A DNA stretch of 64,000 nt from an archaeon. Lineage in GTDB: Archaea > Thermoproteota > Nitrososphaeria > Nitrososphaerales > Gagatemarchaeaceae. The stretch covers positions 1-64,000 of the forward strand of contig JAKASK010000006.1 of NCBI GenBank assembly GCA_021819105.1, given 5' to 3'. The position numbers and the translations under genes were made by a program. Below are positions 50,395-64,000 of the stretch, one piece after another (position 1 is the first letter of the stretch; the number at the start of each line of letters is the position of its first letter). The notes below the pieces were generated by a model. That model saw nothing but the letters and a program-made list of their open reading frames with translations. It was not told the DNA's origin and searched no databases.

Positions 50395-51285
50395 ATGATG
50401 CTCCGAGTGAGGTTCCATGGAAGAGGGGGTCAGGGAGCCAAGACGGCGAGCAGAATCCTGGGCGACGCGGCATTCAACGACGGCTTCAACGACCAGGACT
50501 TCCCCATCTACGGGGCCGAGAGGAGAGGCGCCCCCGTAGCCGCGTTCACGAGGTTCTCCGACGGCGACATCACCGAAAGGGGGTTCATCTTCTCGCCCGA
50601 CATCGTCGGGGTGATGGACGACTCCCTGATCGAAGATCCACTCGCTAATCCTTTCGCCGGGCTCAGGAAGGGGGGCTGTGCCGTTGTGAACACGACCAAG
50701 CCCTCGGGTACGCTGCTCCCGGACAGGAAGGACGCGAAGATAATCACAATCGATCTAACCGGGATGGCGCTGAAGATGCTCGGGAAGCCCATCCTGAGCT
50801 CCGGCATCGCAGCCGCCGTGGCGAGAGTCGCAGGCGTCAGCGAAGGCTCCTTCCTGAAGGCGGTGGCCGATGAACTCCGCGAGGTCGGGCTATCTGAGGA
50901 GATGGTGAAGAAGAACGTGGAGTTCGCCATGGCTGTGTACGGGGAGCTGGCGCCGCTCACGCTCCGCACCGAGGAGCTACCGTCGAAGCTCGAGCTGGTA
51001 CCTCTGGCGGTGGTTGTGTCCGGAGAGGGGATGGAGGACGTGACGCAGACAGGGAATTCGGCCGTGAGGCACACCGGGAACTGGAGGACCTACAGGCCGG
51101 TCATAGACTACAGAAGGTGCACCGACTGCATGATCTGCTACGCCTACTGCCCGGAGTCCGCCATGTCGGTGGGAGAGGACGGCAGGGTGCGCATAGACTA
51201 CGAGAACTGCAAGGGGTGCATGATCTGCCTGACAGAGTGCCCCCTGAAGGCAATCTCGCAGTCGGGAGAAAGGGGACTCCAATGA
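50395..51285 (+). CDS. porGD: Pyruvate:ferredoxin oxidoreductase, fused gamma-delta subunit
   Basis: A 296-residue fusion. Residues 1-190 are the gamma subunit (RFHGRGGQGAKTASRIL, the CoA-related domain); residues 235-290 are the delta ferredoxin domain with two 4Fe-4S motifs (CTDCMICYAYCP and CKGCMICLTECP). The enzyme oxidises pyruvate, or a related 2-oxoacid, to acetyl-CoA with ferredoxin as acceptor. ATGs at 50395 and 50398 are both possible. It overlaps porA as ATGA. Confidence 0.93.
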   Translation: MMLRVRFHGRGGQGAKTASRILGDAAFNDGFNDQDFPIYGAERRGAPVAAFTRFSDGDITERGFIFSPDIVGVMDDSLIEDPLANPFAGLRKGGCAVVNTTKPSGTLLPDRKDAKIITIDLTGMALKMLGKPILSSGIAAAVARVAGVSEGSFLKAVADELREVGLSEEMVKKNVEFAMAVYGELAPLTLRTEELPSKLELVPLAVVVSGEGMEDVTQTGNSAVRHTGNWRTYRPVIDYRRCTDCMICYAYCPESAMSVGEDGRVRIDYENCKGCMICLTECPLKAISQSGERGLQ

Positions 51286-52505
51286 AGGGGACCCTGCTGA
51301 CGGGCAACGCCGCAGCGGCGTCGGCCGCCAGGCTCGCCAGGGTGGACTACGTCCCAGCATATCCCATCACTCCGCAGACCGAGATAATCGAGACGATCGC
51401 AGACTGGGTCAGGGAGGGCACCATGGACGCCAAGTTTGTCCAGCTGGAGTCGGAACACTCTATGATGACGGCGGCCGGGACGGCGTCCCTCACGGGGGCG
51501 CGCGTGTTCACCGCGACCTCGAGCCAGGGGCTCCTTTATGCCATGGAGATGCTCTACAACGTCTCAGGCTGGCGGGCACCCATGGTGCTGGTCAACGTGT
51601 CCAGGGGACTTGCGGCGCCGATCGTGCTGGAGCCCGACCACAACGACGTGCTGGCGGCCAGGGACAGCGGCTTTGTGCAGCTTCACTCTGAGACCTGCCA
51701 GGAGGTCGCCGACCTGGTCCTCCTCGCGTACAGGGTGGCCGAAGACAGGAGGGTGATGCTCCCCGCGCTCGTGAATCTGGACGGGTTCTACCTGTCCTTC
51801 ACGAGGGAGAGGGTGGTCCTCCCCGAGCAGAAGGAGGTCGACAAGTTCCTGCCTGCATACGACCCGCCGCACCCGGTCAGGGCGACCAAGGCAGTAGCCA
51901 AGGGGTCGGCGGTGATGGAGGGGTTCGTCTACAGCTACTTCAGGTACAACATGCACGCAGCGGCGCTCAGGGCCAAGAAGGCCTTCAGCGAAGCGGCCCG
52001 GGACTACAGGGAACTCTTCGGGCGGGACTACGGCCCGGTCGAGGGGTACAGGCTTGACGACGCCGAGTACGTCCTAGTGATGTCCAACTCCTTCACCACC
52101 CTTGGAAGGCAGGCGGTCAACAGGATGAGGGAAAGGGGAGTCCCCGCGGGTCTGTTGAAGCTCAGGATGGTCAGGCCGTTCCCGTCAGAGGAGTTAGCGG
52201 CCCTGCTCAGGGGAAGGAAAGCCGCTGCGGTGTTCGACCAGAACCTCTCGCCTGGATCCGGCGGGATCCTCTTCCCTGAGGTAGCGGCATCGATGTATCA
52301 CGTCAAGGGGAGACCCGAGACCCTGCTGCCGGTGGTCGGCGGCCTCGGGGGAAAGCAGTTGACGTCGGATGAGATGACCTCGATCTTCGAAGAGATGATC
52401 GCCGTTCGGCGCGGAGAGAAGGCCCCTGAACCCATGTTCCTCATGAGGAGCGAGGAGCTGGCCAAGGCGAAGAAGGCCGTGGCCCTCGCGGAGGGGGAGC
52501 CCTGA
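51282..52505 (+). CDS. porA: Pyruvate:ferredoxin oxidoreductase alpha subunit
   Basis: A 407-residue alpha subunit with GNAAAASAARLARVDYVPAYPITPQTE at the N-terminus (split motif: GNAAAA, YPITPQT), which contacts TPP and pyruvate, and a C-terminal domain starting near the VLVMSNSFTT stretch. YPITPQTE is the usual pyruvate-type signature. It overlaps porGD (ATGA) and porB (TGATG), so the three subunits are translationally coupled. Confidence 0.95.
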   Translation: MKGTLLTGNAAAASAARLARVDYVPAYPITPQTEIIETIADWVREGTMDAKFVQLESEHSMMTAAGTASLTGARVFTATSSQGLLYAMEMLYNVSGWRAPMVLVNVSRGLAAPIVLEPDHNDVLAARDSGFVQLHSETCQEVADLVLLAYRVAEDRRVMLPALVNLDGFYLSFTRERVVLPEQKEVDKFLPAYDPPHPVRATKAVAKGSAVMEGFVYSYFRYNMHAAALRAKKAFSEAARDYRELFGRDYGPVEGYRLDDAEYVLVMSNSFTTLGRQAVNRMRERGVPAGLLKLRMVRPFPSEELAALLRGRKAAAVFDQNLSPGSGGILFPEVAASMYHVKGRPETLLPVVGGLGGKQLTSDEMTSIFEEMIAVRRGEKAPEPMFLMRSEELAKAKKAVALAEGEP

Positions 52506-53473
52506 TGGCGACGGCAACGAGGTTCAGGACCCTGAAAGACATGCCGAGCGATGAATATCTCACGCCGGGGAACACGATGTGCGCGGGGTGCGGCGGCATA
52601 CTTGCCGTCAGGATATTCCACAAGGTCCTCGGGCCTAATGTCACCTGGGTAAACGCGGCAGGGTGCATGACGATCGCCGTGTCCTACCCGCTGAGCCCTC
52701 TGAAGTCGAACTGGATCTACACCGCCTTCGCGTCCGCGCCTGCAGGGGCGCAGGGCGTCAGAGACGCGCTGGACGTGCTCATGGCGAAGGGGAAGCTCCC
52801 GGCGTCCGAAGACATGAAAGTGGTGGTGGTGACAGGGGACGGCGCCGCCTACGACATAGGGTTCCAGTCTGCCGCCGGGGCCATAGACAGGCGCCTCGAC
52901 TTCTACTACCTCTGTTACGACAACGAGGCATATGGGAACACCGGGTTCCAGATGTCCTCGTCCACCCCTTTCGGCTCGGCGTCGAAGACTACCCCGCCCA
53001 CCGCCGCCAACCCCATAGGCAACACCCACAGGAAGATGGACCTCTTCGAGGTCTGGAGGGCCCAGAATGCCCCCTACGTGGCCACCCTCTCCAACTCTCA
53101 CGGCGTCGACTTCCTGAAGAAGGTGGAGAAGGGAGGGACCATAAGGGGGCCCAAGATGTACATCGACTTCGCCGCATGCCCCACCGGGTGGGGGTTCGAC
53201 CCCAAGGACTCCATCGAGCTCGAGAAGCTCGCGGTGCAGACAGGCATCTGGCCGCTGAAGGAATCGGTCGACGGGGTGGTCAGGCACACTGTCGTTCCGA
53301 GGTCGCTGCTCCCTGTGAAGGAGTACCTCACGAAGCAGGAAAGGTTCGCCCACCTGTTCGAGCCGACCGAGAGGACGGAGGCCATCAGGACAATCCAGGA
53401 GTCCGTCAACTCCTACTGGGCTGTGGCGGGGGCAAAAGAGGGATTTGCGGTAAAGGCAGCCGAAGTGACCTGA
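52505..53473 (+). CDS. porB: Pyruvate:ferredoxin oxidoreductase beta subunit
   Basis: A 322-residue beta subunit with the TPP-binding signature GDGAAYDIG and the downstream NEAYGNTGFQ, plus Cys ligands of the proximal 4Fe-4S cluster in MCAGCGG and later AACPTGW-like CPTGWGF. It ends the porGD-porA-porB operon. Pyruvate is the most likely substrate; indolepyruvate or 2-oxoglutarate cannot be excluded by eye. Confidence 0.95.
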   Translation: MATATRFRTLKDMPSDEYLTPGNTMCAGCGGILAVRIFHKVLGPNVTWVNAAGCMTIAVSYPLSPLKSNWIYTAFASAPAGAQGVRDALDVLMAKGKLPASEDMKVVVVTGDGAAYDIGFQSAAGAIDRRLDFYYLCYDNEAYGNTGFQMSSSTPFGSASKTTPPTAANPIGNTHRKMDLFEVWRAQNAPYVATLSNSHGVDFLKKVEKGGTIRGPKMYIDFAACPTGWGFDPKDSIELEKLAVQTGIWPLKESVDGVVRHTVVPRSLLPVKEYLTKQERFAHLFEPTERTEAIRTIQESVNSYWAVAGAKEGFAVKAAEVT

Positions 53474-53528: not shown

Positions 53529-54794
53529 GTGCCTACCTCGCAACACGGGGTGGAAAAGAGCAGGGGCGGCCCCCGCGGAGCGAGCGTTGGCGGGGGGGTC
53601 TGGTTCCTCGCTGTCATGTTCGTGGGATACTTCGCATTCACGGCGGACAGGACGGTTCTCTCTTCGGTACTGAAGCCGCTCTCCGCCGCCGTGGGCGCCA
53701 ACGGGTCCGGCTACTTCGGCGTCGCCGGGACTGCTTGGCTGGCCTCGGCGCAGTTCATCGGCGTACTGTGTTTCGTCCTTGCGTCTGGCTACCTTGCCGA
53801 CAGGTACGGTCACAGGAAGGTGATCTTCGCGGGGGTCGTCGTATTCACCGCTTTCACATGGCTCATCGGTTATGCGGCAGATTTTCAGGAGGCATTCGTA
53901 TTCCGGCTCGTGAGTGGATTCGGCGAGGGGCTCTTCTGGCCGGCGGCGATGTCGGCGGTGGCCAACTACTTCGGCACCAGCAAGGGGCTGACCCTGGGCA
54001 TCTTCTACGCCGGGTTCGACCTAGGAGGGGCGGCGGGGAACGCCATAGGAGCCGCGTCATACTCCCTGACCTCAGACTGGAGGGCAGCGTTCTTCGTCGC
54101 ACCCCTCGTCGGCATCCCAGTGATTGCGGGGATCGCGGGCTCGAAGAGACAGTTCGCCGAAGCCTCAACCGGGACGTGGAGCACGTCTCTCGGCGGGGGA
54201 GCCCTCTCCGTGTTGAAAGGGGAGCGCGCAGCGGCCATACTGGCCTTCGCGTTCTTTGCCACCTGGGCTTCGATCTGGCAGGTGGCCTACCTTCCATACT
54301 ACTATTCGGAGAGTCTCGGGGCCGGCGTGCCGTTGGCGGGCCTTATCGCGGCTGCCGTCCTCGCGTCTGGGCTCTTGGGGAAGGTCCTGCTGGGGAGGCT
54401 CTCGGACAGAGTGAGGAGAGACAGGCTGCTCCTGGTACTCTCGTTCGCCGTGGTGGCAGCCTACGGGGTCTTCTTCTCCACCACCGACTTCTTCCTGGGC
54501 CTGGGGTGCGCACTCATGATAGGCTTCTTCAGCTCGGCGGTCTTCCCCGTGATGCAGGCTCTGGCATCCGACTCTTCTCAGGGGAGGACGGGCATGGCCC
54601 TCGGGCTGACCACTACGTTTCAGTCTGTTGCTGCCGTCATAGGGACCCTTCTCCCAGGGTCTCTCTTCTATCTTGGAGTCGGGCGGGCGATTGCACTGGG
54701 GGCGATGATACCAGCGATCATCATGGTTCTGACGGCTTTGTTCCTGCCCGAGCCGAGGAAGACTCCCTCGGGAATCGGGACCAACGATTTATAG
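53529..54794 (+). CDS. MFS transporter
   Basis: A 421-residue permease with twelve predicted helices. The loop 2-3 motif GYLADRYGHRKV is the MFS signature, repeated in weaker form as GRLSDRVRRDR in the second half. A substrate cannot be assigned; related archaeal carriers move organic acids or sugars. The GTG at 53529 is the first start. It lies 55 bases after porB and may transport a carboxylate used by POR/PPDK, which is only an inference. Confidence 0.88.
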   Translation: MPTSQHGVEKSRGGPRGASVGGGVWFLAVMFVGYFAFTADRTVLSSVLKPLSAAVGANGSGYFGVAGTAWLASAQFIGVLCFVLASGYLADRYGHRKVIFAGVVVFTAFTWLIGYAADFQEAFVFRLVSGFGEGLFWPAAMSAVANYFGTSKGLTLGIFYAGFDLGGAAGNAIGAASYSLTSDWRAAFFVAPLVGIPVIAGIAGSKRQFAEASTGTWSTSLGGGALSVLKGERAAAILAFAFFATWASIWQVAYLPYYYSESLGAGVPLAGLIAAAVLASGLLGKVLLGRLSDRVRRDRLLLVLSFAVVAAYGVFFSTTDFFLGLGCALMIGFFSSAVFPVMQALASDSSQGRTGMALGLTTTFQSVAAVIGTLLPGSLFYLGVGRAIALGAMIPAIIMVLTALFLPEPRKTPSGIGTNDL

Positions 54795-54818: not shown

Positions 54819-55070
54819 ATGTGCGTCACCAGGGTCGGCAGGGCGCTCGAGGTCTCCAGGGGCAAGGCTAGGGTAGAGTTCTTCGACGGGAGGTCCTTGG
54901 AGGAGGTGGACGTCACGATGGCTGCGGCGGCCAGGGGAGACTACGTCGAAGTGTTCGGCAACCTCGCCCTTTCGGTCCTAACGGCCTCAGAAGCGAGGGC
55001 CAGGAGGAGGGCGTGGGCCGCGGTAAGGAGAGGGGAGGAGCTGGCGAAAGCCGAGGCCCACCCACGATGA
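54819..55070 (+). CDS. HypC/HupF-like chaperone, divergent
   Basis: An 83-residue HypC-family protein. It keeps the N-terminal Met-Cys (C2), which in HypC binds the Fe(CN)2CO unit and the hydrogenase precursor, and the GDYVEV turn at residues 40-45. The conserved His that follows (VHAG in HypC) is Phe46 here. A TATA box GATTTATAG (54786-54794) sits about 28 nt upstream. The stop overlaps the next gene (ATGA). No hydrogenase or other hyp gene is in the window, so it may serve another enzyme. Confidence 0.75.
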   Translation: MCVTRVGRALEVSRGKARVEFFDGRSLEEVDVTMAAAARGDYVEVFGNLALSVLTASEARARRRAWAAVRRGEELAKAEAHPR

Positions 55071-55834
55071 AGAGGGACGGGGTCCTTTTCCACGCGAAGC
55101 ACGCCTACAGGCCGAACAGCCTGGGATTCTGCGGGCCAGACGAGAACGGCACCATACTCAGCCACCTTCAGGAAGGGAGTGGAGGAGACGCCCTGGTCAG
55201 GACCCTTCAGAACTTCGAAGCTGCCTACCCTTTCCTCAAGCTCATTGCGAGGAACAGCGCTAGAAAGGTCTTCGATTACTCTGTCCCCGAGGCGTATTGG
55301 GTCGGGAACGACCTCCTTAGTCGGGTGGACCCCGCCGACTTTCTGAAGTTCGCCCGGGAGGAGCTGAAGGGTTCAGGGATGAAGAACCTCCAGGCAAGCT
55401 TCAAGCCGCTCGAGGGGGGCGTGATCGCGCACCACAGCTTCTACGTCATGGGGACCTATGTCGGGAGCGGAGGAGACGGGCCGAACATCGTGAACGACGG
55501 TCGTCGGAAGGTCGCCAAGCTCATCGACAGCTGCCGCGTTTCTTGGGGGACGGTGCTTAGGGTGGAGGCCAGGGAACTGGCGGTGAAGTCCCGGCCCCTG
55601 CGCATAGGAGACGCAGGGCTGTCGCTCGGCGAGGCAGGGGAGAAGATGGTGAAATACGACCCGGAAGTGAGGCCCTTCGGCTCCGTCAGGGCGGGGGATG
55701 TCGTCTCGATACACTGGAACTACGCTTGCGAGGTCCTCTCGCCACGGCAGACCAGGAACATCCAGAAATACACCGCGGCAGACATGCAGACTCTAAATCG
55801 GCTCCTCTCTTCCGACGGGTCTCGAAGGAAGTAG
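55067..55834 (+). CDS. Probable DUF6390 protein, partner of the HypC-like protein
   Basis: A 255-residue soluble protein. The motifs YRPNSLGFCGPDE near the N-terminus, YWVGNDLL near residue 80 and AHHSFYVMG in the middle match what I remember of DUF6390, a family of unknown function that tends to lie beside hypC-like genes. It has a conserved Cys (GFCGP) and a His pair (HHSF) that could bind metal. It overlaps the HypC-like gene by four bases, so the two are probably made together. Confidence 0.65.
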   Translation: MKRDGVLFHAKHAYRPNSLGFCGPDENGTILSHLQEGSGGDALVRTLQNFEAAYPFLKLIARNSARKVFDYSVPEAYWVGNDLLSRVDPADFLKFAREELKGSGMKNLQASFKPLEGGVIAHHSFYVMGTYVGSGGDGPNIVNDGRRKVAKLIDSCRVSWGTVLRVEARELAVKSRPLRIGDAGLSLGEAGEKMVKYDPEVRPFGSVRAGDVVSIHWNYACEVLSPRQTRNIQKYTAADMQTLNRLLSSDGSRRK

Positions 55835-55835
55835 C

Positions 55836-56147
55836 CTAGGACAGGCCGGACAGCTTCTCGATTCTGCCTATCCTCGCCTTGTCCAGCTCTTCGACGACCC
55901 TGAGGAGCTTCGAGAGCTCCGCCTTGTTTCGTTCCGAGTCGTCGTGGAGCTGCTTGAAGGCTGCCTTCTCGGTCTGGTCGTTCGCGGCCGCCGCCATTCT
56001 CCCGTAGGTGTCAGCCAGATCGTCCTCGACGGCGCACCACTGGACCAGGTTCTCGATCGTCGTGTCGATGTAGCCTGTCTTAACGGTCTCCTCCACCTTC
56101 TTGGCGTCTTCAGTTCTTTCGAACTCGGTTAGGACCCTGTTCTTCAA
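55836..56147 (-). CDS. Small helical protein, unknown function
   Basis: A 103-residue, fully helical, charged protein with several Glu/His positions (for example CAVEDDLADTY and KQLHDDSERNK). It might form a ferritin-like or four-helix bundle, but the full metal-ligand set is not evident and I do not recognise a family. TTG start preceded by GGGAGGGG. It is convergent with the DUF6390 gene, one base apart. Confidence 0.6.
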   Translation of the reverse strand: MKNRVLTEFERTEDAKKVEETVKTGYIDTTIENLVQWCAVEDDLADTYGRMAAAANDQTEKAAFKQLHDDSERNKAELSKLLRVVEELDKARIGRIEKLSGLS

Positions 56148-56195
56148 GCCCCTCCCTCGCTTCGTCCGTTGGGCCCTTCGTAATAAGAGCAGTGC

Positions 56196-57806
56196 CTAGG
56201 GGAGTGAGAAACACCACCTGACCTCGAAGGTCGCTCCGCTCGACACGAGGGGGACGAAGGCCTTGCCCAGTCCGGAGTAGAATTTCGAGAACCACTCGTA
56301 GACGTTGAGCCGTAGGTCCTGGACGTATACGATGAACGCCTCGATGGCGATCACCGCCAAGTTTCCGGGTATGGCGAGCGCCACTCCGAAGCCGCCGAGG
56401 CTCAGCAGCCCTGCCATCAGCTCTCCGAGGACCGACCCCACCACGAGCAGTATGCCGAGCCGGATATAGCTGACGGTGTGTATCAGGAGCTCGGCGGGCC
56501 TCACGACTGCCTCGACCACCCCCTTCCACAGCGAGTCGAGGGCGGGCTTGGACCTGCGCGTTGAGTACAGTTTGTACGCCGCACGTCCAAAGACGAGCAC
56601 CAAGAGGGAAGCGGCCATCATCGGAAAGGTGATGTCTGCCACGGTGGAGGCAGGCAACCTCACCCCAAGAAGAGTGGAGAAGAACGGAGTCGGCTGGCTG
56701 CTGGAGAAGACGTTCTGAAGGTCGACACCCGCCGCGACCAGCGCGAACACGAAGGGGATCGTCGCGGCGTAGAGAACGAAGGTTGGGACATAGCCAAGGA
56801 GGGCTTCGGCGTAGTCCCCGGACAGCAGCCTGTTCGTTATCGCCAGTGCATATCCCGTCGCCAGATGGAGTGTGCCGAAGACGATGCCCACTTCAAACCA
56901 GAAGGTCGCAGTCTGCAGGCTCGGACCCTGGGAGATCAGGCTTGGAAAGGCCAGAGGGGCTGGATAGGGCAGGGTGAAACCGAAGAAGGTCCCGCGGAGT
57001 GCGCCCACCACAGCGGCGGCACAGCCGAGGACGATGAGGAGCCTCCCGAGGTACCTGTAGCTTTCTTTCTTGGCGCCGCGCAGATACAACCCCCCGAGGA
57101 GTAGGACCAGGCCACGTCCAATGTCGCTGAACATAATCCCGAAGAACAGGGGAAAGACAAAGGCGACGATCGGCGTCGGGTCCACCTCGTTGTACTTGGG
57201 GACCCCCAGCGACAGTGTGACCCCCTCGAAGATCCTCACTACCCCTGGGTTCACGACCAAGGAGGGGACGTAGGGGACGCCGGGCTGGTTTCGCGGCACC
57301 GGCTCCGCGGAAAGGAGATAGCGGCCGAGGGCTGAGGTGAACTCGGAAAGCCTGGGCGTGGGGGCGTATCCTTCCAATACGAGGTGCCTTCTCAGGCCCG
57401 GCCGGACCCTGATCCTGTTGAGGTCCCTGAAGACCGCGAGGGCCGCGTCCCTCACAGACACCAGTTCAGAGAGGACTCCGGGCGAAACGGCCCCGGGCGC
57501 CCCCTCGAGTTGCTCGGCCAGCTCGGAGGTCCTTCGTTGAAGGAGCCGCACCAGGTCGCTGATGGAGTTTGCACCGAAGGTGCGGACGGGAGCGGCTTCT
57601 GCCGCCCCCCACCTCCTGATCAGGTTGCTCGCCTCAGAATAGACCAAATGGGCCTTGGAACTCAGGATCACCAGCTGGGTGTCCTGCACCAGGCCCTGAC
57701 GGTCGGATGGATGGAACATCCCCGTCTCGCAGAGCCTTGCCAACATGACGTCCACTTCACCTCTCGAACAGATGAGGGTGACCTGGGTGAGTGGGACGAC
57801 TGCCAT
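56196..57806 (-). CDS. atpI: A/V-type ATP synthase subunit I (subunit a), short form
   Basis: A 536-residue subunit I. The membrane half contains FFGIMFSDIGRG, a helix with HTVSYIRLGILLV holding the Arg needed for ion transfer, and the terminal EAFIVYVQDLRLNVYEWFSKFY. The cytosolic N-terminal half is about 200 residues, shorter than the roughly 330 usual in the family (640-680 total). It forms the ion half-channels and stator foot. No other ATPase subunit is in the window; it follows uspA by 16 bases. Confidence 0.9.
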   Translation of the reverse strand: MAVVPLTQVTLICSRGEVDVMLARLCETGMFHPSDRQGLVQDTQLVILSSKAHLVYSEASNLIRRWGAAEAAPVRTFGANSISDLVRLLQRRTSELAEQLEGAPGAVSPGVLSELVSVRDAALAVFRDLNRIRVRPGLRRHLVLEGYAPTPRLSEFTSALGRYLLSAEPVPRNQPGVPYVPSLVVNPGVVRIFEGVTLSLGVPKYNEVDPTPIVAFVFPLFFGIMFSDIGRGLVLLLGGLYLRGAKKESYRYLGRLLIVLGCAAAVVGALRGTFFGFTLPYPAPLAFPSLISQGPSLQTATFWFEVGIVFGTLHLATGYALAITNRLLSGDYAEALLGYVPTFVLYAATIPFVFALVAAGVDLQNVFSSSQPTPFFSTLLGVRLPASTVADITFPMMAASLLVLVFGRAAYKLYSTRRSKPALDSLWKGVVEAVVRPAELLIHTVSYIRLGILLVVGSVLGELMAGLLSLGGFGVALAIPGNLAVIAIEAFIVYVQDLRLNVYEWFSKFYSGLGKAFVPLVSSGATFEVRWCFSLP

Positions 57807-57822
57807 GCCCAGGAGCTCTAGT

Positions 57823-58260
57823 TCACCTTACGACCAGAACCGGACATGTGGCTGCCTGCACCAGCCCTATGGCAACGCTCCCCACAAGGACGTGGGCGGA
57901 AGGGGTCCTGCCGCGGGTGCCTGTGACAATCAGTTCGCAGGAGATCGCGTCCGCGTATCCGACTATGGTGTCAACCACCGAAGAGGCCCCGACGATTATC
58001 TCCGTCCTTACTGCAAGGCTCCGCTTCGCTGCTTCGCTTTCGACACTTTTCATCCAACGGGCGGCCGAGGCCCGCGCCTGGTCGAAGTAGTCGGCGACTT
58101 CCCCCTGGTACTCGAAGGGCGGAGAAGGGACGACGTGGACGACGTACAGCTCAGACCCTTCTTCCTTTGCCATGCGGACGGCATGGGCCATCGCGCGCAT
58201 GGACACATCTGACCCGTCGACGGCTACGAGAATCCTCCTGAACGGAGCTCCGGCGCTCAT
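57823..58260 (-). CDS. Universal stress protein (UspA family)
   Basis: A 145-residue Usp domain: ILVAVDGSDVS at the N-terminus and the ATP-binding GTRGRTPSAHVLVGSVA near the C-terminus (pattern G2XG9XGS/T), so it is likely an ATP-binding type. The ATG at 58260 is chosen because CTTAAAT on the minus strand (58291-58298) lies about 34 nt upstream. It heads a short uspA-atpI operon next to the complex I genes. Confidence 0.9.
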   Translation of the reverse strand: MSAGAPFRRILVAVDGSDVSMRAMAHAVRMAKEEGSELYVVHVVPSPPFEYQGEVADYFDQARASAARWMKSVESEAAKRSLAVRTEIIVGASSVVDTIVGYADAISCELIVTGTRGRTPSAHVLVGSVAIGLVQAATCPVLVVR

Positions 58261-58309
58261 GGCCCTCGTCTCCTCGCGCATCCTTCTCGAATTTAAGACT
58301 GGACCCGAA

Positions 58310-59767
58310 TCAGAGCACCCACCCGAGTATGACGAAGGGCGCTATGCCGGTTACCAGGCTCAGAGCGAGCAGGGATATCGACGGCAGGAGGTCGATGCGC
58401 GGGACGGCCTCTCGGCTCCCGGACGTCTCGCCGAAGACGACGGTGTTGACCACCCTGAAGTAATAACCGGTGGACAACACTATGTTGATGACCACGGCGG
58501 CGGCGAGAAGATAGAACACCGTTCCCGCGGGCCCCGCGAACAGGAGCGCCTGGATGACGAGGATCTCGCTCCAGAACATCCCGAACGGCGGAGCCCCCAT
58601 CAACGCAAGCGACGACGACCCGAAGAGGAAGCCGAACATCCTGTCGGACCTCCCCGCCCCCTTCAGACTGTCGAGCTGCGACCCCTCGACGGTCGAACCC
58701 CTCTTGCCGATTGCCATGAAGAGGTTCGACTTCAGGAGTCCGTGGTTCCAGATTGTGAAGACGGCGGCCACCAGTCCCGGGGCGCTCATGGTGGACAGCG
58801 CGGCGAGCATGTATCCCGTTTGAGCCACGGAGCTGAAGGAGAGCATCCGCCTAACGTTCCCTTGGACCAGAGCAGACAGGTTCCCTACGGTCATCGACAG
58901 GAGGGCAAGGGCCGCCAGGATCAGCTCGATGGCACCAGTTCCCCCGACCGGCTGAAGCCCGGGGGGGAGATATCCCCCTCCTGGAACAAGAGGCTGTACC
59001 ACCTTGAGGATACCGAAGACGGCGACGCCGGTGACGGCCCCCGACACCACCGACGCCGTGGGTATCGGGGATGCAGAGTAGACGTCCGGGAGCCAGGTGT
59101 GGAGAGGGACGACCGCCGCTTCTACCCCGAGCCCCAGGAGAAGGACGGCGAACCCCAGCTGGCCGAAACTCGTGGTCAGCGATAGGCCGATGGACCCGAT
59201 GAGAATCGACCCCGTCGAGAAATACACCGCGGCGATGCCGTAGAGGACCAGCAGGCTGCCTATGCCCGCCATGAAGAAGTACTTGATTCCAGCCTCCATG
59301 GACAGTTGGCCCCTCCCGAAGGTTACCAGCCCGTAGGCCGAGACGGTCATACCCTCCCAGAAGAGGAAGAGGGTCAGGAGGTCTCCGGCCGACACGACGC
59401 CCACCAAGGTGCACATCATGATTGAAAGGAGGGCGTAGAAGGGCCCCCGCCTGCCGGATTCGAAGTAAAGCGTCGAATACGCGACCACGGCGAAGCCGAC
59501 GACCAGGGCGGTGAAGGCCGTGAAGGTCGTGTACCTGTCCACGACGTAGACGCTTGCGAACGGCTCCTTGACTGGCTGGAGCTGAACAATCCCCCCGAGG
59601 ACCGAAGGCCAGTCGGAAAGGAGCACGGCGATGGAAAGAGCGAGCGCCGCGGCCACCACCAGTCCCGCCGCGTATCTCTTCAGGAAGGCTGATGGGCCAG
59701 CCAAATCCGCCGCCAGGGACAGGAAGCCACCTGCGAAGAGTATCTCCATGACCGTTGTCGGCCACAC
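58310..59767 (-). CDS. nuoN: NADH/F420H2-type complex I subunit N
   Basis: A 485-residue antiporter-like subunit with fourteen or so membrane helices. The Glu in FLFWEGMTVSAYGL (helix 5) and the lysines in helices 7 and 8 regions (EAAVVPLHTWLPDVY, then SVAQTGYML) are the ion-pathway signatures. Distances and the LHTWLPDVY variant fit NuoN rather than NuoM. A GTG at 59767 starts three bases after the nuoL stop; the ATG at 59749 is the alternative. It is the last gene of the nuo operon. Confidence 0.9.
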   Translation of the reverse strand: MWPTTVMEILFAGGFLSLAADLAGPSAFLKRYAAGLVVAAALALSIAVLLSDWPSVLGGIVQLQPVKEPFASVYVVDRYTTFTAFTALVVGFAVVAYSTLYFESGRRGPFYALLSIMMCTLVGVVSAGDLLTLFLFWEGMTVSAYGLVTFGRGQLSMEAGIKYFFMAGIGSLLVLYGIAAVYFSTGSILIGSIGLSLTTSFGQLGFAVLLLGLGVEAAVVPLHTWLPDVYSASPIPTASVVSGAVTGVAVFGILKVVQPLVPGGGYLPPGLQPVGGTGAIELILAALALLSMTVGNLSALVQGNVRRMLSFSSVAQTGYMLAALSTMSAPGLVAAVFTIWNHGLLKSNLFMAIGKRGSTVEGSQLDSLKGAGRSDRMFGFLFGSSSLALMGAPPFGMFWSEILVIQALLFAGPAGTVFYLLAAAVVINIVLSTGYYFRVVNTVVFGETSGSREAVPRIDLLPSISLLALSLVTGIAPFVILGWVL

Positions 59768-59770
59768 CGG

Positions 59771-61519
59771 TCAGAGCACCCCCACTGCGAAGAGGACGAA
59801 GAGGACGCCGACGGCCAGGAGCAGGAGCGCCGTGTTCGCTTCTACCAGGCCCGTCTGCAGGCGCGAAACCGCGGATGCCAGGGGGCCCAGGGCACCATCG
59901 TAGGCCTTGCCGTAGACCTTGTCGAACCCGAAGCCGTCATGGAAGAGGTCGCGGAGGCTCGTGAGGCCCCTGCTGGACCTGATCAGGGCGGCAGACCTCT
60001 GGTAGCCTGAAAGGTAGACGAAGTAGGCAACCGCGAGGCTGGCGCCGATGACTGAAAGCGACGAAGCCAGCGCGTAGGGACCGGGGAGCCAGGACTCGGA
60101 CGAAAGGAGGGGCTGGGCCTGTATGAGATACCAGGCTACCAGGATGGACACCGAAAGTGCTCCAATGGGGACCAGCATGGACAGGGGGGGTTCGGAAGGC
60201 GACTTCACCGCTTCGCCGGGATGGCCGTGGAACACCCGGAAGAGGAGCCGGAAGCCATAGAGAGATGTGAGCGCGAACGCGGCCAGGAGGACGAGAGTCG
60301 GGAAGAGCCCCGCGGATATTGCCGAAGAGAGGATGGCGTCCTTGCTCCAGAACCCCACCAGAGGCGGCAGCCCAGCCATGGCAAGGATGGAGACCGTGAA
60401 TCCTGCGTAGGTGAACTTCAGGAGCTTCGCGATTCCCCCCATTTTGTCGATCTCCCTCGTCCCCAGGGCCGTAATCACCGAACCTGCTGCGAGGAACGCG
60501 AGGGCCTTGAAGAGTCCCTGGCTGACCATCTGGTAGGCTGCGGCGGTCAGGTTCCCCAGGCCAATGGCGGCGAACATCAGTCCGAGCTGGCTGATGGTCG
60601 AGTATGCGAGGACCCTCTTTATGTCGTCGGCAGCCAGTGCGCAGGCTCCCCCCACCAGCGCGCTCAGCGCACCGACGGCAAGGATGACGTCGGCAAGGGA
60701 ACCCGAAAGCTGTGGGAGCGCGATCATGGGGTACATCCTGAGCATGAGGAAGACCCCCGCGTTCACCATTGTCGCGGCGTGGATGAGGGCAGAAACCGTC
60801 GTCGGGCCCTCCATGGCGTCGGGGAGCCAGACGTGGAGGGGGACCTGGGCAGACTTCCCCATGGAACCGATGAACATCAGAAGGCCGAGGACGAAGATAG
60901 TCCCGGTCCCCAGCGATGCAATGCCTCCAGGGCCAAGGATGGTGGAGAAGCTGGTCGTCCCAAAGGTGACGGCGACGAACACGACGGCTACTAGCAGGGA
61001 GGAGTCCCCAAGGCGCGTCACAACGAAGGCCTTCAGCCCGGCTCTCCTTGCCGCCGGCCGGTCGCTCCAGAAGGCGATGAGAAGGGCCGAGCAGACCCCC
61101 ATCACTTCCCAGAAGAAGTAGAACTGGATGAGGTTCCCGGACATCACCAGCCCCATCATCGACCCGACGAACAGCATGACCAGGGCATAGTATCTTGCCT
61201 GCCCGGGCTCGTCTTTCAGGTAGCCCAGCGAGTAGACGACCACCAGCAGAGACACGAAGGAGACGAAGGCGCCCACCAGCACCGACAGCTGGTCGACCTC
61301 TACCTGCAGGGTCACGCTGAGCGGCGGGAACCAAAGGGTGTACCCCTCGGTGGTGGACGCGCCCAAGGTGAGGGCTGCGTAGAATGCCGCTGCGACGCTT
61401 CCGCCAGACAGAGCCACAGCGAGCCAACCTCCTAGCCTCCCGCTGTGCCGAGCGGCGAGGACGACGAGTGGGACCCCGAGCAGTGGCAGGAGCCACGACA
61501 GCCAGGCCGCGATGATCAA
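59771..61519 (-). CDS. nuoL: Complex I subunit L
   Basis: A 582-residue subunit with VEVDQLSVLVG, the FYFFWEVMGVCSALLIAFW helix 5 Glu, KSAQVPLHVWLPDAMEGPTTVSALIHAATMVNAG (split motif, helix 7-8 with conserved Lys and His) and a C-terminal amphipathic region (DLFHDGFGFDKVYG) that marks NuoL. It pumps protons. The TTG start overlaps the nuoK stop (TTGA). The gene that usually stands beside it, nuoM, is absent. Confidence 0.93.
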   Translation of the reverse strand: MIIAAWLSWLLPLLGVPLVVLAARHSGRLGGWLAVALSGGSVAAAFYAALTLGASTTEGYTLWFPPLSVTLQVEVDQLSVLVGAFVSFVSLLVVVYSLGYLKDEPGQARYYALVMLFVGSMMGLVMSGNLIQFYFFWEVMGVCSALLIAFWSDRPAARRAGLKAFVVTRLGDSSLLVAVVFVAVTFGTTSFSTILGPGGIASLGTGTIFVLGLLMFIGSMGKSAQVPLHVWLPDAMEGPTTVSALIHAATMVNAGVFLMLRMYPMIALPQLSGSLADVILAVGALSALVGGACALAADDIKRVLAYSTISQLGLMFAAIGLGNLTAAAYQMVSQGLFKALAFLAAGSVITALGTREIDKMGGIAKLLKFTYAGFTVSILAMAGLPPLVGFWSKDAILSSAISAGLFPTLVLLAAFALTSLYGFRLLFRVFHGHPGEAVKSPSEPPLSMLVPIGALSVSILVAWYLIQAQPLLSSESWLPGPYALASSLSVIGASLAVAYFVYLSGYQRSAALIRSSRGLTSLRDLFHDGFGFDKVYGKAYDGALGPLASAVSRLQTGLVEANTALLLLAVGVLFVLFAVGVL

Positions 61520-61824
61520 CCCCTGAGCCTCCTTATCTCGTCTGGGTTGAGAGTGTGATACTTCCTGTACACCACGACGACGATCGCAAGTCCCACCGAT
61601 TCCACGGAGGCGCCGACGAGGACCGAGAGGGCCACGAACGTGTCGGAGACGAGCCTTGAACCGAACCCGAGTCCGGAAGCGAACAAGGCGAGGTTGGCAC
61701 CGAAGACCGCCACCTGAAAGGACATGATGCTCTTCATCAGGTTCTTGGAGACGCCGATAGAGGCGACCCCGATGAACAGGAGTGCGGTCCCGGTCACAAG
61801 CAGGATAGCCTGATCAGACGCCAA
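61516..61824 (-). CDS. nuoK: Complex I subunit K
   Basis: A 102-residue subunit with three membrane helices. It includes GVSKNLMKSIMSFQVAVFGANL, in which one of the usual K-subunit glutamates of helix 2 is Gln, and SVLVGASVESVGLAIVVVVY with the helix 3 Glu in VESV. The TTG at 61824 is two bases after the nuoJ stop; a CTG at 61830 that overlaps that stop is a second option. It takes part in the quinone-coupled proton route. Confidence 0.88.
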   Translation of the reverse strand: MASDQAILLVTGTALLFIGVASIGVSKNLMKSIMSFQVAVFGANLALFASGLGFGSRLVSDTFVALSVLVGASVESVGLAIVVVVYRKYHTLNPDEIRRLRG

Positions 61825-61826
61825 GG

Positions 61827-62303
61827 TCAGTCCTCTCCTCCGAGCAGGGTGATGATCGACAACATCGCCGCCCCGAACACGGTCACCAGGATCAGAAGGT
61901 CCCATGGCCTCGAGGACCAGAGAAACGTGAGGACCGCGAGCGACAAGTCGGGGGTCCCCTGACCCCCTCCCTGGCCTGAAAAGACGATGGCTGCGGCCAG
62001 CCCGACGGTCAGTGCGACCAGCGGCACCGCCGCGACCGCAAGCTTTCGGGCGCCGAGGTCGAGCTTGGACTCGCCTGTGATGAGCACCACGCTGAGAAGG
62101 AGGACAGAGATTGCGCCAGCGAAGGTAATCATCGTGAGCAGGCCCAGGACGGCGTCCCCGTAGACCGTGAAAGTGACGCCCAGAACCATGGAGGTATAGA
62201 ACAGAGCTATGAGGGAGTTGGAGACTTTGGTCGAAGCCAGGGCTGCCCCGACGGTAGCGAAGAGCGCCCCTGAAAGCAGCAGGGGGACTAGCTCACTTGT
62301 CAA
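61827..62303 (-). CDS. nuoJ: Complex I subunit J
   Basis: A 158-residue subunit with five membrane helices. The third helix GLLTMITFAGAISVLLLSVVL is the conserved NuoJ element with the pi-bulge. It starts with TTG and overlaps nuoI by 11 bases. Confidence 0.88.
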   Translation of the reverse strand: MTSELVPLLLSGALFATVGAALASTKVSNSLIALFYTSMVLGVTFTVYGDAVLGLLTMITFAGAISVLLLSVVLITGESKLDLGARKLAVAAVPLVALTVGLAAAIVFSGQGGGQGTPDLSLAVLTFLWSSRPWDLLILVTVFGAAMLSIITLLGGED

Positions 62304-62691
62304 CTACCAGGGCCTTCTTCATCACCAGCGATTCCTTGTGGAAGACTGCCAGTTCGAAGTCGTGGGTAAGCGTGAGGGCGCCGAACCTGCAGTCGTCCAC
62401 GCACTGGCCGCAGGATATGCATGTGTACAGTTCGAAGGACGGCCTCTTCACTTCCACCTGGCGGCTCCCTATGGTCTTCATCCCCACAGGGACCATGGTG
62501 ATCACCCCTGCTGGGCAGACGATCTCGCAGATGCTGCACCCGGTGCACTTCACCGGGTCGATGTCCAGCCTCCCCCTGAACCTCTCCGCGACCACCTTCC
62601 TGCCGAAGGGATAGCTCTCCGTGACGGGACGCTGCATCGCAGTCTTGAACATCTCCCCGAGGGCGCCGCCTAGCTTCTTCCTGGCCACCAT
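62293..62691 (-). CDS. nuoI: Complex I subunit I (8Fe ferredoxin-type)
   Basis: A 132-residue subunit with two 4Fe-4S motifs (CTGCSICEIVCP and CISCGQCVDDC), which pass electrons from the input module to the N2 cluster. A short N-terminal amphipathic part ties it to the membrane arm. Spacing to nuoH is one base. Confidence 0.94.
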   Translation of the reverse strand: MVARKKLGGALGEMFKTAMQRPVTESYPFGRKVVAERFRGRLDIDPVKCTGCSICEIVCPAGVITMVPVGMKTIGSRQVEVKRPSFELYTCISCGQCVDDCRFGALTLTHDFELAVFHKESLVMKKALVVDK

Positions 62692-62692
62692 C

Positions 62693-63661
62693 TCACCTCA
62701 GCAGGATCGCCACCGCAAGTTGCGCGAGGCTCAGTGGAGTGATGATGGTCCAGAAGACCTTGGCGGCCTGGTCGATGCGGATCCTCGCCAGCCCTGTCTT
62801 TATGGCGAAAATGAGGAACCCTACAGCGAAGAGCTTCACCAAGAAGTAGCAGGTGAAGGCAAACGCCTGTAGGACCTGGTTCGTTGACAGCACGGGCCCG
62901 CCCGCCCCGCCCAGGAAAAGGGTGACCGCGAGGGCGGACAGGAAGACGTAGCTCAGGTTCTTGGTGAGCTTCACGTAGGCCAGTGCGTTCCCCGAGAACT
63001 CCGTCATCCAACCTCCCACAATCTCGGTCGAAGCGCTGGGGATGTCGAACGGAGGCTTCTCGAGCTCTGCGAGCGAAGAGAGGATGAAGACCGCGAACGC
63101 TACAGGAGCGAGGAAGACGTACCAGACGGGTCCCTGGGCCTCGGCGACTCCCTGAAGCGAGAGGCTCCCGGCCAGGACTGCCGGGGTCACGATAGAAATG
63201 AGGAGCGGGACCCCGTAGCTGGTGTACTGGACCACCAGCCTCCCCATCGCGATCGTCGCGTACCGTCCTGCAGATGCGTAGCCCAGGAGGCTGGCCATGA
63301 GGGTGGAGAAGGCGAGGACGAAGAGCATGAAGAGGAGGTCCAGCGGGTGGTAGATGACCGACTGGTACCCGATCACAGGGATGAACGCGATCCCCATGGC
63401 AGGGGCAGCGAAGTAGAGTGCGGGGCCCCACCTCAGGACGAAGGGGTCAGATTCAGAAGGGACGATCTCCTCCTTTGAGGCCAGCTTGAAGAAGTCGGCC
63501 ACGGGCTGGAGGATCCCGAAGGGCCCGGTGACCACAGGACCGAGCCTCCCCTGCATTCTGGCGGCTGTCTTCCTTTCGAGCCACTCGAAGAGGAATGCCA
63601 AGCAGACGAAAAACGTCAGGCCAGGGAAAAGCAGAAGCTCGGCGACCTGGACGGGGGTCAA
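62693..63661 (-). CDS. nuoH: Complex I subunit H
   Basis: A 322-residue subunit with eight or nine helices: LFEWLERKTAARMQGRLGP (split motif ERKTAARMQGR), GILQPVADFFKL, and the quinone-chamber segment ELEKPPFDIPSASTEIVGG. The TTG at 63661 overlaps the nuoD stop as TTGA; the longer frame is not conserved. It forms the quinone-binding site with NuoB and NuoD. Confidence 0.94.
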   Translation of the reverse strand: MTPVQVAELLLFPGLTFFVCLAFLFEWLERKTAARMQGRLGPVVTGPFGILQPVADFFKLASKEEIVPSESDPFVLRWGPALYFAAPAMGIAFIPVIGYQSVIYHPLDLLFMLFVLAFSTLMASLLGYASAGRYATIAMGRLVVQYTSYGVPLLISIVTPAVLAGSLSLQGVAEAQGPVWYVFLAPVAFAVFILSSLAELEKPPFDIPSASTEIVGGWMTEFSGNALAYVKLTKNLSYVFLSALAVTLFLGGAGGPVLSTNQVLQAFAFTCYFLVKLFAVGFLIFAIKTGLARIRIDQAAKVFWTIITPLSLAQLAVAILLR

Positions 63662-64000
63662 CCGCGCTTCCTCCTGTAGTACTCGATGCCGTACTCGCGC
63701 AGTTCCTCGCCGCTGACCGACCATCCCTTGGACTTCGCCACGTCGAAGACAGAGACCCTGTCCATGCAGCCGAAGCAGGGGTCCATCCCCGTGAGTACCA
63801 CCGGGACGTCTGCCAGGGTCTGCCCCTTGAGCATCTCCGTGGCAGTGAGGAGGTTGGCCATGGTCGGGGTCCGTATCTTCACCCTTTCCGGCACGCTCCC
63901 CCCTGCCGACTTCACGAAGTAGAACAGCTCCCCCCTAGGCGCCTCCACATGGAACGACGACTCGCCCTCGTGGACCGTTCTGGGGAACGCTGCCTTGACC
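63658..64000 (-). CDS. nuoD: Complex I subunit D, C-terminal part (cut by window end)
   Basis: The last 113 or so residues of NuoD are visible: EAPRGELFYFVKSAGG, VKIRTPTMANL, EMLKGQTLADVPVVL and DPCFGCMDRV. The gene continues beyond the right edge. The retained Cys-X2-Cys in the last motif, a relic of the NiFe-hydrogenase ligand set, is also kept in archaeal FpoD-like proteins but lost in many bacterial NuoD. It stands first of the visible nuoD-H-I-J-K-L-N genes. Confidence 0.94.
   Translation of the reverse strand, partial: VKAAFPRTVHEGESSFHVEAPRGELFYFVKSAGGSVPERVKIRTPTMANLLTATEMLKGQTLADVPVVLTGMDPCFGCMDRVSVFDVAKSKGWSVSGEELREYGIEYYRRKRG

Follow-up and report, generated by a model that had tools for sequence, protein, structure and literature searches.

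DUF6390 as a Probable Partner of HypC-Type Proteins in the Maturation of [NiFe] Hydrogenases in Genomes Lacking HypD and HypE

Genes at the Locus

The window analysed here is a stretch of 64,000 nucleotides from an archaeon of the family Gagatemarchaeaceae (assembly GCA_021819105.1, positions 1 to 64,000 of contig JAKASK010000006.1). It carries a pair of overlapping genes preceded by a transporter gene on the same strand:

53529 to 54794, + strand: MFS transporter (PF07690), separated from the pair by a gap of 24 bp
54819 to 55070, + strand: HypC-like protein of 83 amino acids (PF01455, E=3.3e-6)
55067 to 55834, + strand: DUF6390 protein of 255 amino acids (PF19927, E=2.3e-51)

The HypC-like ORF matches the PF01455 (HupF_HypC) profile over its full length with 27.6 bits, just below the Pfam cut-off of 28.5, and TIGR00074 with 26.9 bits, below the cut-off of 48. 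Its N-terminus, MCVTR, has the Met-Cys start of the HypC family, and in the alignment (VEVFGNLAL versus VLVHVGFA) Phe occupies the column of the HypC His. An ATGA at 55067–55070 is common to both ORFs, which thus overlap by 4 bp. The DUF6390 ORF is a full-length member of its family (175 bits against a cut-off of 25, profile positions 3–242 of 244) and contains GFCGP, YWVGN and a His pair. The Met-Cys start, the Phe in place of His, the overlap and the motifs of the partner had been described in an initial annotation made from the sequence, and they are confirmed here, as is the coupling of the two genes, which is above chance, the pair being found in six further genomes of the family. The MFS transporter (ORF cluster 27) recurs in five of the six fetched loci of relatives, and its gene and the pair probably form one transcription unit.

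The complementary strand carries an operon whose 3' end lies 1 bp past the DUF6390 stop codon and which fills the rest of the window (55836–64000, - strand). Listed from its 3' end, it comprises the following genes:

55836 to 56147, - strand: small conserved protein with no function assigned and no accepted Pfam family, with homologues in relatives (cluster 30)
56196 to 57806, - strand: V-ATPase subunit-I-like protein (PF01496, E=1.8e-18)
57823 to 58281, - strand: universal stress protein (PF00582)
58310 to 59767, - strand: antiporter-like subunit of the NuoM/N type (PF00361)
59771 to 61519, - strand: antiporter-like subunit of the NuoL type (PF00361, PF00662)
61516 to 61905, - strand: NuoK-like subunit (PF00420)
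61827 to 62303, - strand: NuoJ-like membrane subunit, assigned from the ORF and its position, with no Pfam match
62293 to 62694, - strand: NuoI-like protein with two CxxCxxC...C ferredoxin motifs, assigned from the reading frame
62693 to 63724, - strand: NuoH-like membrane subunit (PF00146, E=1e-78)
63658 to 64000, - strand: C-terminal part of a [NiFe]-hydrogenase-type large subunit with DPCFGC; the gene continues to position 64893 of the contig

On the part of the contig past the window edge are found the remainder of the large subunit, ORFs resembling NuoB and NuoA, a protease of the HycI type (PF01750, above the cut-off) and HypA (G000:C6:66629-66976, E=1.7e-18); the large-subunit remainder, the protease and HypA all lie within 3 kb of the edge. 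The remainder includes an RICGIC motif, which together with DPCFGC provides the four Ni-ligating cysteines. DPCFGCMDR is followed by a tail of 32 residues that, to judge from the sequence, could be removed by a protease. The nearest solved relatives of the large subunit are HycE of formate hydrogenlyase (2e-78) and the Mbh large subunit, and every complex I entry ranks behind them; the enzyme is therefore group-4 [NiFe]-hydrogenase-like. The initial annotation had stated that the window contains no hydrogenase or other hyp gene, which is wrong, since most of a group-4 operon, DPCFGC included, is located in it.

A 2-oxoacid:ferredoxin oxidoreductase operon is present shortly upstream of the pair (50395–53473, + strand) and might supply the group-4 complex with reduced ferredoxin.

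Occurrence in Related Archaea

The family set comprised 37 genomes, including that of the window (65% complete) and genomes G001, G002, G003 and G017 (90–97% complete). The HypC-like protein, DUF6390 and HypA (above the cut-off) were found in an identical subset of seven of the 37 genomes; by chance, one such coincidence has a probability of about 1e-7 if relatedness is ignored. Five of the seven also encode a group-4 large subunit with all four cysteines (79–100% identical). No other member of the family had a large-subunit match above 36% identity, the ordinary complex I homologue being far weaker. In G015 the pair is present and the contig stops before the site of the hydrogenase, and in G036 a group-1-type enzyme is encoded on the same contig by genes for a large subunit (CGVC ... 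CLAC) and a small subunit, along with HypA and a maturation protease.

HypD was absent from all 37 genomes of the family, and so was full-length HypF, for which only matches to acylphosphatase and Sua5/YrdC-type domains were obtained, none above the cut-off. HypF was searched for in the family of the window, and HypE in the named DUF6390 genomes discussed below. The initial annotation had named, as evidence that would speak against its reading, a hydrogenase accompanied by a full hyp set with this gene as the only hypC; the hydrogenase does exist, while HypD and HypF are absent across the family.

Two genomes of the same order, G048 and G056, encode large subunits 46–47% identical to that of the window together with canonical HypC, HypD and HypF, and DUF6390 is absent from both. 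Judged by gene content, the difference between these genomes and the family of the window is a natural swap of maturation sets. DUF6390 is rare in the phylum, with one confident match, that of the window's own genome, in 300, which suggests a lateral gain.

Two further observations concern G036. The V-ATPase subunit-I-like and universal stress proteins found at 56196–58281 (- strand) of the window also occur at its group-1-type hydrogenase (L028:735-2840, - strand). In addition, a probable B12-binding radical SAM protein, recognised by eye, is encoded between the small subunit and the HypC-like gene (L028:6685-8601, - strand), and is thus a candidate enzyme for the chemistry of ligands or cofactors there.

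Structure of DUF6390 and Its Relation to HypC

An alignment of 71 sequences and an AlphaFold2 model (pLDDT 87, pTM 0.88) divide the DUF6390 protein into two domains:

55067 to 55531, + strand: all-helical N-terminal domain with invariant Cys22 and His123
55532 to 55813, + strand: C-terminal HypC-like beta-barrel plus helix with invariant Cys156 and His216

The best match of the model among PDB folds is HypC (2z1c, TM 0.69 on HypC); a second HypC appears at rank 14, and most of the other matches are generic OB folds. A sequence search of the PDB also placed HypC first, with a weak match (E=1) in the same C-terminal region. Profile comparison, likewise weak (hhalign E=7e-4), aligned Cys156 and His216 with, respectively, Cys2 and the His column of HypC, and several DUF6390 proteins were matched by the HypC profile with E values of 6e-3 to 3e-4. 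For the N-terminal domain, no solved relative was evident among the PDB matches listed. The only invariant possible metal ligands in the 71 sequences, which come from many phyla, are Cys22, His123, Cys156 and His216, so that the HypC-type Cys and His of the C-terminal domain are conserved in 71 of 71. DUF6390 thus consists, as the model predicts, of a helical domain joined to a HypC-like one. We also considered DUF6390 as a divergent HypD, and rejected this possibility because no HypD appeared among the sequence or fold matches listed.

Of the 59 HypC-like proteins encoded near DUF6390 genes, all 59 keep the Cys and 38 lack the His. The missing His, which the initial annotation had noted in the window protein, is therefore common among its counterparts.

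Distribution of DUF6390 and Its Linkage to Hydrogenases

A genome scan detected at least 588 DUF6390 loci, of which the best 80, belonging to Chloroflexota, Actinomycetota, Patescibacteria, Dormibacterota and Bacillota, were fetched. A [NiFe] large-subunit gene is located within 10 kb of DUF6390 in 53 of these 80 loci, and a HypC-like gene adjoins it in 27; HypD, HypE and HypF were found in only one. At the level of whole genomes, 44 of the 49 named DUF6390 genomes lack HypD, the other five holding both, and these 44 likewise have no HypE above the cut-off. At 31 HypD-less loci, a large subunit with both motifs and all four cysteines is encoded within 10 kb of DUF6390. The HypD-less genomes with DUF6390 include nine from cultured Arthrobacter and Pseudarthrobacter, genera in which intact group-1h hydrogenases are encoded.

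The enzymes encoded near DUF6390 include HofG-like group 1h hydrogenases, distant HofG-like ones and other group 1 enzymes, with a sulfhydrogenase-like enzyme at the patescibacterial loci and a group 4 enzyme in the window. This variety argues for a general role of DUF6390 in maturation. Of 400 Chloroflexota genomes, sampled evenly across the phylum, 36 have DUF6390, 161 have HypD and none has both, against an expectation of 14.5 (Fisher p=3e-9, shared ancestry ignored). The two are not strictly exclusive elsewhere, since DUF6390 is found inside complete hyp clusters of Sulfobacillus acidophilus and of a Mycobacterium intracellulare plasmid. DUF6390 could thus be an auxiliary factor, and in some lineages it may act alongside HypD.

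ORF clustering at 86 loci revealed no universal further partner, the recurring neighbours being the large subunit, the protease, HypB, NifU and assorted transporters. A search of viral contigs with DUF6390 gave no match.

DUF6390 very frequently has a transporter gene as its neighbour, although the family varies. The transporters encoded within 2 kb of DUF6390 (loci L092-L171) include EamA proteins at 21 loci, solute-binding proteins of ABC family 5 at 10, FecCD-type ABC transporters at eight and iron-type ABC permeases at five, with MFS transporters at the archaeal loci; they could import nickel or a cofactor precursor. Loci of Patescibacteria (L116, L121, L131 and L141 among others) encode a conserved protein, some 129 residues long (cluster 14, 10 loci), which adjoins DUF6390 or the sulfhydrogenase-like large subunit and is possibly the maturation protease of this group.

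Apparent Replacement of HypD, HypE and HypF in a Conserved Operon

In Pseudarthrobacter oxydans CC185 the gene order is hypA-hypB-small-large-NifU-DUF5947-DUF6084-unknown-protease-hypC, with DUF6390 beside hypC. No homologue of HypD, HypE or HypF was found in the 36 kb of the locus, and HypD and HypE were not found in the whole genome. Plasmid pHG1 of Cupriavidus has the same operon, followed by hypF-hypC-SIS-hypD-hypE-hypA-hypB, and no match to DUF6390 was obtained on it. The CC185 large subunit is 76% identical to Cupriavidus HofG (5aa5), the alignment extending from end to end. In Kitasatospora NBC_00039 (79% identical), hypA-B-F-C-D-E is present as well. On the evidence of gene content, the comparison of CC185 with pHG1 is the clearest swap of HypD, HypE and HypF for DUF6390. 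Because the CC185 enzyme is so close to Cupriavidus HofG, the same cofactor is expected in it, which would imply a so far undescribed source of the ligands.

The gene that immediately precedes the group-1h large-subunit gene bears the annotation 'hydrogenase expression protein HypE' at two loci (L177:18920-19975 and L178:13899-14960), although by its position it looks like the small subunit. Such a mislabel could mask the absence of a true HypE in annotation-based surveys.

A Proposed Maturation Route without HypD

According to current work, every [NiFe] hydrogenase receives its NiFe(CN)2CO cofactor from a set of six Hyp proteins, HypC and HypD forming the scaffold for Fe(CN)2CO and cyanide being provided via HypE and HypF (PMC12130793). 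Since HypA and the protease are retained at the loci described here, nickel insertion and processing look ordinary, and the iron-ligand branch is the missing part. We consider it likely that HypC and DUF6390 constitute a maturation system for [NiFe] hydrogenases without the HypD/HypE branch and, in the family of the window, without HypF. The initial annotation had raised the prospect of an undescribed maturation system, and it is to this that the evidence points. Our literature search found no paper that names DUF6390 and none that reports [NiFe] maturation lacking HypD; hydrogenases are not mentioned in the genome paper on Gagatemarchaeaceae.

In the proposed mechanism, nickel would be inserted by HypA, together with HypB where it is present, and the large subunit would be finished by a HycI/HyaD-type protease. 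The iron moiety would be assembled or handed over by the HypC-type protein and DUF6390 as an alternative scaffold, with DUF6390 taking the place of HypD as partner of HypC. Cys156 and His216 would act as their counterparts do in HypC, and the helical domain with Cys22 and His123 would assume the role of HypD. From the linkage, the co-occurrence, the genome-level absence of HypD and HypE and the HypC-like fold, all evident at the level of sequence, we infer that the two proteins may form a complex and bind iron, and that DUF6390 may functionally replace HypD. On balance, the data also favour the broader proposition that a second route to the iron site of [NiFe] enzymes operates in several bacterial phyla and some archaea, the iron moiety being built or delivered by HypC and DUF6390 without HypD, HypE and HypF, with cyanide and CO either coming from elsewhere or not being used.

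Other readings of the data were weighed. DUF6390 and HypC could be an accessory factor for delivery, proofreading or oxygen protection, HypD, HypE and HypF being absent for a separate reason, such as an analogue that escaped recognition. The Sulfobacillus and M. intracellulare clusters, where DUF6390 has hypD or hypE as a neighbour, and the five of 49 genomes holding both, fit this reading, but it does not account for the full mutual exclusion in the 400 Chloroflexota genomes or for the two operon-level exchanges between HypD/E/F and DUF6390 for related enzymes, and we regard it as unlikely. It is quite unlikely, too, that the enzymes have a simplified Ni-Fe site without cyanide, to which DUF6390 and HypC deliver iron carrying CO or no ligand. 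Such a site would agree with the joint lack of HypD and HypE in 44 of the 49 genomes, with the lack of HypF in the window's family and with the failure of any gene family to be universally linked with DUF6390; however, the 76% identity of the Pseudarthrobacter large subunit to HofG of an organism with a full hyp set makes the same cofactor likelier.

One could also suppose that HypD, HypE and HypF are missing merely through incomplete assembly or binning, and that the pair is an ordinary hypC with a hydrogenase-linked protein. Although the window's own genome is 65% complete and most of the others are MAGs, HypD is absent from all seven pair-bearing genomes, four of them 90–97% complete, and from the nine cultured strains, the loss of HypE falls on the same 44 genomes as that of HypD, and the overlap in Chloroflexota is zero; we rejected this supposition as very improbable. 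Least probable of all, and likewise rejected, is the suggestion of the initial annotation that iron or another cofactor of some non-hydrogenase enzyme is handled by the pair: 27 of the best 80 loci have no large-subunit gene in the fetched stretch, but several of these are short contigs, and the pair lies tail to tail with a hydrogenase operon, co-occurs exactly with HypA and has its relatives near a large subunit at 53 of 80 loci.

Whatever the details of the chemistry, many genomes, including those of cultured soil Arthrobacter and Pseudarthrobacter, encode near-canonical hydrogenases and contain DUF6390 instead of HypD and HypE. If maturation by HypC and DUF6390 is correct, there would be a second way to make, or to do without, a most unusual cofactor, and a large protein family of unknown function would be explained; relatives of atmospheric-H2 oxidisers are among the groups concerned. 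Moreover, the heterologous production of oxygen-tolerant hydrogenases could be simplified, and predicting hydrogenase function from the hyp gene set would be unsafe.

Comparison with Known Hydrogenase Maturation Systems

The proposed DUF6390 system shares HypA, a HypC-type protein and a HycI/HyaD-type protease with the canonical HypA–F machinery, and differs from it in the lack of HypD, HypE and, in the window's family, HypF. As in the canonical HypC-HypD couple, a larger protein accompanies the HypC-type one beside large subunits with intact Cys motifs; however, DUF6390 gave no HypD among the matches listed and itself holds a HypC-like domain. In this domain the fold and the Cys and His are those of HypC, but the Cys is internal and is preceded by a helical domain of 155 residues. 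The HypC-like protein of the window resembles HypC, HybG and HupF (PF01455, TIGR00074) in its Met-Cys start, size and fold class, but has lost the His and misses both curated cut-offs.

With regard to the enzymes, the HofG operon on pHG1 of Cupriavidus necator has the same gene order as that of Pseudarthrobacter, but is accompanied by hypF-C-D-E-A-B and no DUF6390. The hydrogenase of the window has CxxC and DPCxxC motifs and Nuo-like membrane subunits in common with the group-4 enzymes HycE (FHL) and Mbh, but, as its gene complement indicates, is probably matured without HypD and HypF. PF19927, listed as a family of unknown function, is placed here among the probable hydrogenase maturation factors.
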